Below, in pieces: positions 14,554 to 17,151 of a stretch of DNA of 34,460 nucleotides (within the stretch, counting starts at the first letter, position 1; each line of letters starts with the position of its first letter). The notes beneath the pieces were generated by a model that worked only from the letters and a program-made list of their open reading frames with translations, was not told where the DNA came from and made no database searches. Source of the DNA: Bryobacterales bacterium (GTDB taxonomy: Bacteria; Acidobacteriota; Terriglobia; Bryobacterales; Bryobacteraceae); assembly GCA_020851655.1 (NCBI GenBank), contig JADZCI010000059.1, positions 1 to 34,460 on the forward strand, in the 5' to 3' direction. The position numbers and the translations under genes are program-made.

Positions 14554-14757
14554 CTATTTCCGCCGCAGCAGCCAAAGCAGCAGAGTCAACCCGAGACTCA
14601 GCAGCAGGCTTGTGGCGAGCGGGAAATAGAAGGTGGCATTCTTCCTCCGGATGACGATGTCCCCGGGCAAGCGGCCCAGGTTGGTGAACTGTAACAGGAA
14701 GCCCGCGGCGATGAGCAGGCCGCCCACCAGCATCAACGTCTTCCCGAGCGAACTCAT
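14554..14757 (-). CDS. DUF2905 small membrane protein
   Basis: The 67-residue protein has two membrane helices (about 5-25 and 45-63) around the conserved LGRLPGDIVIRRKNATFYFPLATSL loop (residues 28-52), the hallmark of DUF2905. Function unknown. Its ATG overlaps the stop of the upstream isomerase-like gene as ATGA (14754-14757), so the two are co-translated. Confidence 0.9.
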   Translation of the reverse strand: MSSLGKTLMLVGGLLIAAGFLLQFTNLGRLPGDIVIRRKNATFYFPLATSLLLSLGLTLLLWLLRRK

Positions 14758-15992
14758 ACCGAATAAGTACGGCCTCGATGCTGCCCGATCAGAATTTGGA
14801 ACAAGCGGTGCGAAATCAGTTCGTGCAGCGTCAGCAATTCTTTCTGGGACTCGAACACCGACGCCGCGTCGTCCGGGTCGGAGGGAGTCCCTCCGGTTTT
14901 CAGGGCTTCGGTGGCCTCGTAAAGAACGGGATCCGTCATCACCTCACCCGCCATCTCCCAGAGCGTGATGAAGCGGTCGACCGCGGTGGGGAAACTCACC
15001 TCGAACACTCCGTGGTTGGACGTCGTGCGAGGCGGCTTGTAGTCCAGGTTGAACGGACCTTTGTAGTCGTGACTGCGGAGCAGGACGAGGACGTTCAGCC
15101 AGTCCAGAGGATTCACCAGGCCAACCGCGAGATCCACGTCGTGTTTCAGACGGTACCCGTCATTGATGTCGAAGTGGAACAATTTTCCGCACAGCAGCGC
15201 GCGAGCCAGAGCGGCGCGCGGCGCGGCGCCCCACATGAGCTCATGCAGGTATTCCGGATTCAAGCCCACCATGCCTGGATGGCGGAGAAGACCGGACGAA
15301 ATAAAGGCCAGCATGGCGTCCGAAGTCGGCAGCAGGATTTCGGCCGCCGGCTCGAAGGGCTTGGCTTCCAGGCAGTGTTTCAGGGTGGGGCGCCCGTGTC
15401 TCTTCGCCAACGCGATATCGGCTTCGCAGGCGGCATTGAGCCCTTCGGCATACCATTTCAGGGTCTGGGTTTCCTCGATGGCGCCCTGCACCTGGTAGCC
15501 GAGTGAGCCCGGCCAATAGACCGCGAACTCGGCGCCCAGCTTGTGGCCGATTTCCACGGTGTTCTCCAAGCGTTTGGATGCATAAGCGCGGACCGCGGAA
15601 GCCTCGGCGGCGGGTCCGGCGGCAAACACCGCGTGATGGAACGTCTCGGTCGTCACCATCGAGCACTTCAGTCCGTTCTCATCCAGGGATTTCTTGATCC
15701 GGCCGACGATTTCCCACTGCTGATCTTTGAGAATCGCGGAGTAGGGAATGACGTCGGTATCGTGCGTCGCCCAGCAGGGAATTCCGATTTCGGCGTACCG
15801 GCGGATCACCTCTTCAAATCCGGTGGGAGTCCGCGTGGGTGCGTGAAACAGGGCCTGTCCTTCGTAAGCGGCTGCCCATTGGGGGCCGGAAATCCAATAT
15901 TTTCTTCGTTGCGCAGGGCTGTATGAACCGCCGCAAGCTCGGCTAAGGCGGCTCACGAGGGCGCTTTGCTCGGGTACGGTAAGGGTTTTCAT
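14754..15992 (-). CDS. Xylose isomerase-like sugar isomerase (TIM barrel)
   Basis: The 412-residue protein matches the actinobacterial-type (class I) xylose isomerase along its length. It has CWATHDTDVIP (catalytic His and Asp), CLEAKPFEPAAEILLPT (metal Glu and catalytic Lys, where classical enzymes have EPKP), VGLNPEYLHELMWG, CGKLFHFDINDG (metal ligands) and GPFNLDYKPPRT. These ligands being kept suggests an active aldose-ketose isomerase, but it is diverged and its sugar is not certain. ATG 15992 gives the family's length. It lies upstream of DUF2905 and follows a 0.8-kb gene-free stretch. Confidence 0.75.
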   Translation of the reverse strand: MKTLTVPEQSALVSRLSRACGGSYSPAQRRKYWISGPQWAAAYEGQALFHAPTRTPTGFEEVIRRYAEIGIPCWATHDTDVIPYSAILKDQQWEIVGRIKKSLDENGLKCSMVTTETFHHAVFAAGPAAEASAVRAYASKRLENTVEIGHKLGAEFAVYWPGSLGYQVQGAIEETQTLKWYAEGLNAACEADIALAKRHGRPTLKHCLEAKPFEPAAEILLPTSDAMLAFISSGLLRHPGMVGLNPEYLHELMWGAAPRAALARALLCGKLFHFDINDGYRLKHDVDLAVGLVNPLDWLNVLVLLRSHDYKGPFNLDYKPPRTTSNHGVFEVSFPTAVDRFITLWEMAGEVMTDPVLYEATEALKTGGTPSDPDDAASVFESQKELLTLHELISHRLFQILIGQHRGRTYSV

Positions 15993-16114
15993 GGCGTTGC
16001 CAGCCCCATGATATCGAACTCCTTGCGCGGGGCGGCGGCCCACACAAAACATTTCCGCGCGTCTCCGTTTTATTAACAGCCTTTTCACAACGCCGTCTTT
16101 GTAAGTGATTGATA

Positions 16115-16665
16115 CCAGGCCAGATATAGTTTGTGGATTAGGGCCTGGAAAGCGCAGTTTTCTATTGACCTGGAGGGGTATTCCGCCGCATACTGCAGAT
16201 GGTTCCAAGAGGTTCTCGGAACAGTGAGCCGGAAGCAGCGTAGCGGACCCGGAACGATGATCCGGTGGCGAAGCGATTAAAAGTAGCGCCATTGGGGAGC
16301 GAAGGGAAATCGGGCGCGGCAGTTCGGTAAGCCTTCTGATTACTAGCCGAGCCGGGTGCTTTGATCCCGATGGGGTAAAACCCAGGAGGGGAGCGACGGT
16401 GAAGATAAGGTGATCAGAAGCGGCAGTTTTTGACCGCGAAACGGGTGTTGGTCATTGATCTCCCCGGCTAACTCGAGCAGGGCCGAGGAAGGAGACCAGG
16501 ATCGAACGGGCGCGGAATGGATTGCTGTGGCGCCGAAAGCGTAGGCCAGGAGCGGCGACCCTGTCGCGGTCTTATGGAAACGTAAGATCGATGCAGGCGA
16601 GTGAAAGGCTGCGTTGAGGTGCCGGCTTCTAACAGCGAGTGACGCTGGGTCGCTCTGGAGCGTTG
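16115..16665 (+). ncRNA. Candidate large structured RNA, unassigned
   Basis: The 793 bp between 15993 and 16785 hold no convincing gene. Read as plus-strand RNA, they form several helices: CCAGGCC/GGCCTGG (16115-16121 with 16142-16148), GUUCC/GGAAC (16202-16206 with 16218-16222), GUGGCG/CGCCAU (16265-16270 with 16287-16292), an 11-bp helix 16333-16343 with 16410-16420, GCGAC/GUCGC (16555-16559 with 16563-16567), a 7-bp stem capped by a GAAA tetraloop (16570-16587), AUGCAG/CUGCGU (16591-16596 with 16609-16614) and UGACGCU/AGCGUUG (16640-16646 with 16659-16665). Five use G-U pairs that become A-C mismatches on the other strand, so the RNA would be plus-strand. Ends are approximate. It is not an RNase P, tmRNA or riboswitch I recognise. 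Confidence 0.4.
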
Positions 16666-16785
16666 AAGTCGGAAGACGAGCAAAAAAGCGTTTTTCGATG
16701 GAGCAAAGGAGAGGAAGGCCCCGAACTCGGTGTATGCGACGCTCAAGTCTGGCATGCAGACCGGAGAGCAAGCTGCGACGACGGG

Positions 16786-17151
16786 TCACTTGGAACCATT
16801 TTCTTTTTTCCTCCGGCCCCGGTATTCTTCCTTCCTCACCCGAAAACTGACAAAGTTTGTGCGGCATGCCTCGCACCTCCACGGCCGGCCTCCCATCATC
16901 AGCTTGATACGCATAGACAGCGGCGCGTGATACCGGTGTGGCGACCACTTGCCCAGGTCCATTCGGAAGCAACGCGGACATCTGGCCCAGAACCACGCGA
17001 TGGGTGAAAACGGTCTCCAGAAGAATGTGTGTGCGCAGTCCCGGCAGCGCACCCGGTGGATGTCGAGAAAACTGAGCAACAGTCGCCCGGGCGAATTCTG
17101 GCGCGACAGGCGTGTGCGGTGCGAGCCGCAGGCCGGACACTCGACGATCAT
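16786..17151 (-). CDS. Zinc-ribbon protein with four CxxC pairs
   Basis: The 121-residue protein has CPAC (residues 5-8), CRDC (36-39), CPRC (58-61) and CEAC (92-95), enough for two zinc ribbons. A hydrophobic FFWRPFSPIAWFW stretch sits between the second and third pair, and the C-terminus is Arg/Lys-rich. The ATG has AGGGG upstream at 17155-17159. It lies 46 bp downstream of the aminotransferase on the same strand. The pattern resembles small acidobacterial zinc-ribbon proteins of unknown function. A longer overlapping reading frame in another phase has no such pattern. Confidence 0.7.
   Translation of the reverse strand: MIVECPACGSHRTRLSRQNSPGRLLLSFLDIHRVRCRDCAHTFFWRPFSPIAWFWARCPRCFRMDLGKWSPHRYHAPLSMRIKLMMGGRPWRCEACRTNFVSFRVRKEEYRGRRKKENGSK

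Follow-up and report, generated by a model that had tools for sequence, protein, structure and literature searches.

We found that the plus strand of window positions 16201 to 16797 encodes a large structured RNA of ~597 nt (the window is the whole 34,460-nt stretch of the Bryobacterales contig that was analyzed). A preliminary description had sketched a large structured plus-strand RNA of unassigned class here. The 119 candidate homologues now collected support this, as do covariation and the conservation of a promoter; that the RNA is real and structured is virtually certain. The explanation that we consider likely as a whole is a stand-alone large non-coding RNA gene, whose product would have ion-folded kink-turn arms, would be joined through its loops into a homodimer and would serve as a scaffold.

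RNA gene, promoter and ends

The plus strand of 15993 to 16785 holds no gene. The mature RNA, 16201 to 16797 (+), was predicted from 119 unique candidate full-length homologues and covariation. Scanning the window, we found a -35 element, TTGACC (16165 to 16170, +), and a -10 element, CATACT (16189 to 16194, +; consensus CATANT), lying 6 nt upstream of the predicted start. TTGAC is present in 111/114 homologues and begins exactly 35 nt ahead of the RNA (GGUUCC) in 97/114, and CATANT spans -12 to -7, with A at -11 in 98% and T at -7 in 97% of homologues. Judged by sequence, these motifs are a textbook sigma-70 promoter that ends 6 nt upstream of the RNA. Since the TTGAC/CATANT spacing fits such a promoter, the start was placed at G16201.

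At the 3' end, homologues finish in CUUGGAACC and continue into a U-rich tract (113/115); in the window this tract is AUUUUCUUUUUU (16798 to 16809, +), with at least five T of 10 in 113/115 homologues. The window scan found no local terminator hairpin at the RNA 3' end, so pairing of the RNA's own two ends (helix P1) may serve as the terminator stem, P1 and the U-tract together being the predicted terminator.

The extent first proposed, 15993 to 16785, covered most of the RNA on the correct strand, and its bounds are here redrawn to 16201 to 16797 plus the U-tract to 16809; 15993 to 16200 is ordinary intergenic DNA that includes the promoter. The preference for one strand held, as folding of 16201 to 16797 relative to shuffled sequence gave z scores of -4.69 on the plus strand and -2.34 on the minus strand. 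With its own predicted promoter and end, the RNA is very probably a stand-alone, trans-acting RNA.

Homologues and known families

The preliminary description had proposed an Rfam scan and a blastn search for homologues followed by covariation analysis; the scan matched no known family, and the search gave homologues with two-sided changes in 106 of 148 pairs. A blastn search with the region was positive in 121 of the 200 genomes that were sampled from the family, and ten more were recovered with two covariance models built on the first arm, so that at least 131/200 family genomes have the RNA. Three of the extracted sequences with mis-called 3' ends (L045, L097 and L141) were excluded from structural counts. 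RNA length is steady, mostly 580 to 610 nt. The named genomes with true matches and usable titles are Bryobacterales (Acidobacteriota), including Bryobacter, Paludibaculum, Ca. Solibacter, Ca. Sulfopaludibacter and many MAGs; a few matched records are titled 'Arcobacter' or 'Acidimicrobiia', and these titles look mislabelled. Outside the family, 299 genomes of the class and 297 of the phylum gave no match, in a search of limited sensitivity that a very diverged form could escape. Plasmid, phage and IMG/VR collections held no true copy; in one IMG/VR pattern match and a handful from unrelated bacteria, similarity stops at the pattern itself.

No Rfam 15 family matched the window at the gathering score. 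A permissive scan of the window gave weak sub-threshold matches only (E up to 5; best 'drum', E 0.079), which were not repeated in 12 diverse homologues, where nothing appeared at E ≤ 1. Acido-1 (RF01686), Acido-Lenti-1 (RF01687) and a group II intron, all suggested earlier, were consequently dropped, having no match at the gathering score in the window or at E ≤ 1 in the 12 homologues; for the group II intron, this lack of an Rfam intron match also stands for domains V/VI. The same comparisons gave no covariance-model match to OLE at the gathering score in the window and none at E ≤ 1 in the 12 homologues, and no Rfam covariance match to GOLLD, ROOL, HEARO or raiA. Riboswitch identity was rejected. 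Bacterial RNase P RNA (RF00010) was not matched, and the RNase P of this genome is on another contig. In Table 1 of Weinberg 2010 (PMC2864571), the candidate motif Solibacter-1 is listed for one organism, Solibacter usitatus, is marked '?' as an RNA and has no Rfam accession; this organism belongs to the same order as the hosts of our RNA, and by its description the motif possibly overlaps the RNA. By the comparisons with Rfam 15, the RNA is a new class that belongs to no known family.

Six-arm fold and covariation

Applying RNAalifold to 30 homologues, we obtained 148 consensus pairs, 106 of them with two-sided compensatory changes. With this structure imposed, paired cells make up 92.5%, compared with 77.3 ± 0.4% after shuffling, which does not keep relatedness, and at most 47% after sliding the partner 1 to 3 columns, a control somewhat biased toward the structure since this was derived from the same sequences. 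No shuffle in 500 was as high on any measure. Despite the limits of these controls, two-sided changes of this size and spread are very unlikely to have arisen by chance. With 110 homologues, the covariation term contributes 166 of 355 kcal/mol, and the RNA folds into a closed structure with six arms, comprising P1, P2, arm I, a junction with arms II to IV, arm V and arm VI.

The closing helix P1 joins the 5' and 3' ends of the RNA (GGUUCCAAG/CUUGGAACC). Its 5' strand (16201 to 16217, +) carries the near-invariant GGUUCCAAG, which is invariant in 30/30, and its 3' strand, UCACUUGGAACC (16781 to 16797, +), was placed by conservation and covariation. Both P1 ends are identical in 110/119 homologues, and one homologue (L102) has the compensatory combination GGCTCC/GGAGCC. 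GGUUCC (within 16201 to 16222) has alternative partners, the RNA 3' end or a local GGAAC (16218 to 16222); since both are strongly conserved, a co-transcriptional switch between them is conceivable.

Arm I (16228 to 16328, +) extends from helix 16228-16231/16325-16328 to helix 16261-16270/16287-16296 and contains kink-turn A. The helix closing the central junction of arms II to IV (16329-16333/16624-16628, +) is 98% paired, with two-sided changes in 5/5 pairs. Consensus helices define arm II (16334 to 16419, +; kink-turn B), arm III (16421 to 16527, +; kink-turn C) and arm V (16629 to 16736, +; kink-turn D). Arm IV (16529 to 16623, +) contains kink-turn E and a GNRA loop (16577 to 16580), and arm VI (16741 to 16769, +) is a hairpin of the consensus fold with a palindromic loop. 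In one clade (L024, L009, L013 and L028), an insertion extends arm II just before kink-turn B, and the RNA is 606 to 628 nt.

Two helices drawn by eye beforehand recur in this fold: the 11-bp helix closing ~66 nt (about 16333-16343/16410-16420) has compensatory changes in 10/10 consensus pairs, and the GAAA-capped stem (16570 to 16587) has a GNRA loop in 106 to 110 of 110 homologues. The ATCGGG/CCCGAT pseudoknot proposed with them fails, as its terminal pair forms in 3% and an inner pair in 45% of homologues, and its 5' strand is occupied by another helix; ATCGGG is in fact at 16309 to 16314, the proposed partner being 16366 to 16371. Scanning all column pairs for covariation beyond the nested structure gave no extra helix or pseudoknot: of the 150 best pairs, 97 lie in the structure, and the remainder form no helix.

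Five kink-turns

Arms I to V each contain, once, an internal loop of the form C / NNN / GA ... GA / G, with the tandem G-A in 89 to 99% of sequences. On the plus strand, these are kink-turn A (16255 to 16299: C16255, bulge 16256-16258, G16259 A16260 / G16297 A16298 G16299; tandem GA on both strands in 115/116), kink-turn B (C16359, bulge 16360-16362, G16363 A16364 / G16391 A16392 G16393; 114/116), kink-turn C (C16453, bulge 16454-16456, G16457 A16458 / G16492 A16493 G16494; 105/114), kink-turn D (C16661, bulge 16662-16664, G16665 A16666 / G16701 A16702 G16703; 102/114) and kink-turn E (C16553, bulge 16554-16556, G16557 A16558 / G16599 A16600 G16601; 102/115). All five sites have the 3-nt bulge, the tandem G-A/A-G and the flanking stems of a kink-turn, and the flanking helices covary; the C-helix of kink-turn A has an A-C mismatch at -2b:-2n. 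Going by these sequence features, it is highly probable that the five kink-turns form.

L7Ae-family proteins are the usual kink-turn binders. We found no PF01248 (L7Ae family) match in 26 family genomes, while the same search was positive in 8/14 control genomes; L7Ae was rejected as the kink-turn partner. The -1b:-1n pair is C:G in 87 to 114 of 114 to 116 sequences, and C:G at this position was reported by the Lilley group as the most important feature for kink-turn folding with metal ions only (PMC5689011). Since C:G is in the majority and no L7Ae was found in the 26 genomes, we infer that the kink-turns would fold with ions only. They share with the standard kink-turn (Kt-7 type) the C-G pair, the 3-nt bulge, the tandem G-A/A-G and the stem, with -1b:-1n C:G as in the ion-folding type (PMC5689011), but here there are five per RNA, one per arm, in genomes without a detected L7Ae.

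Palindromic loop of arm VI

The arm VI loop is mostly 7 nt and holds a self-complementary hexamer, GCAUGC at 16752 to 16757 (+) in the window, which is the predicted kissing site of a homodimer. Seven perfect palindromes occur at this loop among the homologues: GCATGC, GCTAGC, TCTAGA, GCGCGC, TCATGA, GTATAC and GTTAAC; the variants GCTAGA and GCATGA are incompletely self-complementary. A palindromic hexamer is present in 103/115 RNAs (shuffled mean 66, maximum 76), a count for which hexamers were chosen from a list of candidate words. The less biased count, by alignment column and with no choice of words, is 100/116, and the next best site reaches 28/116 (mean 1.3%). The loop shuffles ignore relatedness, for which counts on the RNA tree, made by a quick method with many weak forks, compensate only partly: the minimum is 11 changes for the center pair of the hexamer and 8 for its outer pair.

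Pairing of the loop within the same RNA was rejected, as 110/115 RNAs have no other site complementary to it. Adjacent bases cannot pair within one chain. Hence, the symmetric changes of the hexamer argue for pairing between two molecules, and a homodimer formed through kissing loops is predicted as quite likely. The same argument from symmetric changes was used for OLE L9.3 and GOLLD L21a, where cryo-EM matched it (PMC12286853). Alternatively, the palindrome could be the site of a dimeric protein or reflect a constraint at the DNA level; protein sites are commonly palindromic, and one word, GCATGC, is common to 84/115 loops. We consider this unlikely, as GCATGC is replaced by six other palindromes through symmetric substitutions, whereas recognition by a protein would preserve the word itself and not just its symmetry, and the palindrome is located in a hairpin loop.

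Genomic neighborhood and history

To the left of the RNA is a sugar-isomerase-like gene (14754 to 15992, -). To the right, tail to tail with the RNA and not part of it, is a zinc-ribbon gene (16786 to 17151, -) whose stop codon lies within the last 12 nt of the RNA, followed in the window by an aminotransferase IV gene and a weakly HipA-like kinase gene. The zinc-ribbon product is a two-zinc-ribbon protein, unnamed but widespread in the family. Its gene is downstream of the RNA in 37/116 loci and also occurs in genomes without the RNA, and it was rejected as the RNA's partner for this reason. The common order, at 45/116 loci, is GAF protein (40), YCF48-like propeller (46), RNA, zinc-ribbon protein (37) and aminotransferase.

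In genomes in which the RNA was undetected, the YCF48 and zinc-ribbon genes are tail to tail, with ~30 to 50 bp between the matched parts. Three such empty syntenic sites (L291 3177 to 3235, L300 3136 to 3172 and L303 3109 to 3140) suggest clean loss of the RNA. On an rpoB tree of 29 genomes with weakly supported forks, the early branches carry the RNA and RNA-less lineages are interspersed among them (9 changes). Hence, the common ancestor of the family probably already had the RNA, which then disappeared repeatedly. Since it is undetected in many members, it is nonessential for the family.

Proposed role and alternatives

Structured RNAs of very large size are rare in bacteria, and to our knowledge OLE, GOLLD and ROOL are still without settled biochemical functions. 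In a cell without L7Ae-type proteins, the kink-turns would need only Mg2+ to fold and, by bending the arms, would give a compact body. The self-complementary arm VI loops would then connect two molecules into a symmetric homodimer, and the particle might act as an RNA or ribonucleoprotein scaffold, as OLE does. We found no partner protein for the RNA, and the scaffold-type function, which draws on the analogy to OLE, is tentative, at somewhat less than even odds.

With the OLE RNA (ornate large extremophilic, Bacillota), ours shares a size of ~600 nt, an ornate fold, kink-turn structure and, as predicted here, a homodimer with a covarying symmetric palindromic kissing loop (PMC12286853, PMC9723947); the last trait is seen here in sequence and makes for analogy, not homology. 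However, five kink-turns are present here and one is described for OLE, where it is bound by OapC/YbxF (L7Ae family), whereas no L7Ae/YbxF homologue was found here (PF01248, 0/26 genomes). The hosts are also Acidobacteriota instead of Bacillota, and our RNA has its own conserved promoter. GOLLD and ROOL are likewise large ornate bacterial RNAs and form homo-oligomers by symmetric kissing loops (PMC12286853), which here are predicted; unlike with them, there is no Rfam match and no phage, plasmid or IMG/VR match here. By analogy, our RNA may be a self-assembling particle like these three. A bolder reading, possible but rather less likely than not, is a new ornate-RNA class in which five protein-free, ion-folded kink-turns build a self-assembling dimer or larger particle, in genomes apparently without L7Ae, with a role unlike that of any known RNA.

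Large ribozymes typically have such a size, long near-invariant stretches (here P1, arm I and the strand ends) and a compact fold, and the fold of our RNA could serve an active site for self-cleavage or for action on other RNAs. We consider a ribozyme or processing RNA improbable, if the least so of the alternatives, as there is no likeness to any Rfam ribozyme, RNase P is encoded elsewhere in the genome, and sequence invariance peaks in the terminal helix and the kink-turns, not in an obvious core. The 12-nt overlap with the stop codon of the adjoining zinc-ribbon gene could point to a cis-regulatory leader, or to a long antisense or 3' element of a neighboring gene. Such a role is very improbable for an RNA with its own promoter and U-tract, no single gene downstream on the same strand and neighbors that vary while it stays; the zinc-ribbon and YCF48 genes also occur without it. 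Least probable is that the RNA is a mobile element or the relic of a group II intron, with the 10-bp inverted terminal repeat as transposon ends; the copy number of one or two per genome, with some copies nearly identical, would fit this. Against it are the syntenic position common to many loci, the rpoB tree, which points to an ancestral RNA that was later lost in places, and the lack of a match to plasmid, phage or IMG/VR collections or to an Rfam intron.

The RNA is a separate class, probably ancestral to a major soil-bacterial family. It offers a strong natural test of RNA-only architecture, with five kink-turns of the ion-folding type without detected L7Ae and a predicted kissing loop whose self-complementarity shows in seven palindromes. 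Isolates of the order (e.g. Bryobacter and Paludibaculum) could open transcription, dimerization and knock-out to direct testing.

Duplicated and diverged copies

Genomes carry one or two copies of the RNA, and several two-copy cases are nearly identical. In six loci (L111, L112, L123, L142, L155 and L156), contig pairs of the same genome end at the same point inside the two RNA copies, as expected where near-identical duplicates break assembly; these cases suggest recent duplication or gene conversion of the RNA in those genomes. In genus g41, scattered weak similarity to the RNA lies beside the zinc-ribbon gene at two loci (L295 2748 to 2987 and L299 2391 to 2441; nhmmer E 2e-11 and 1e-3), the remnants of a very diverged or decaying copy, and in three other genomes of this genus the RNA was detected by covariance model.
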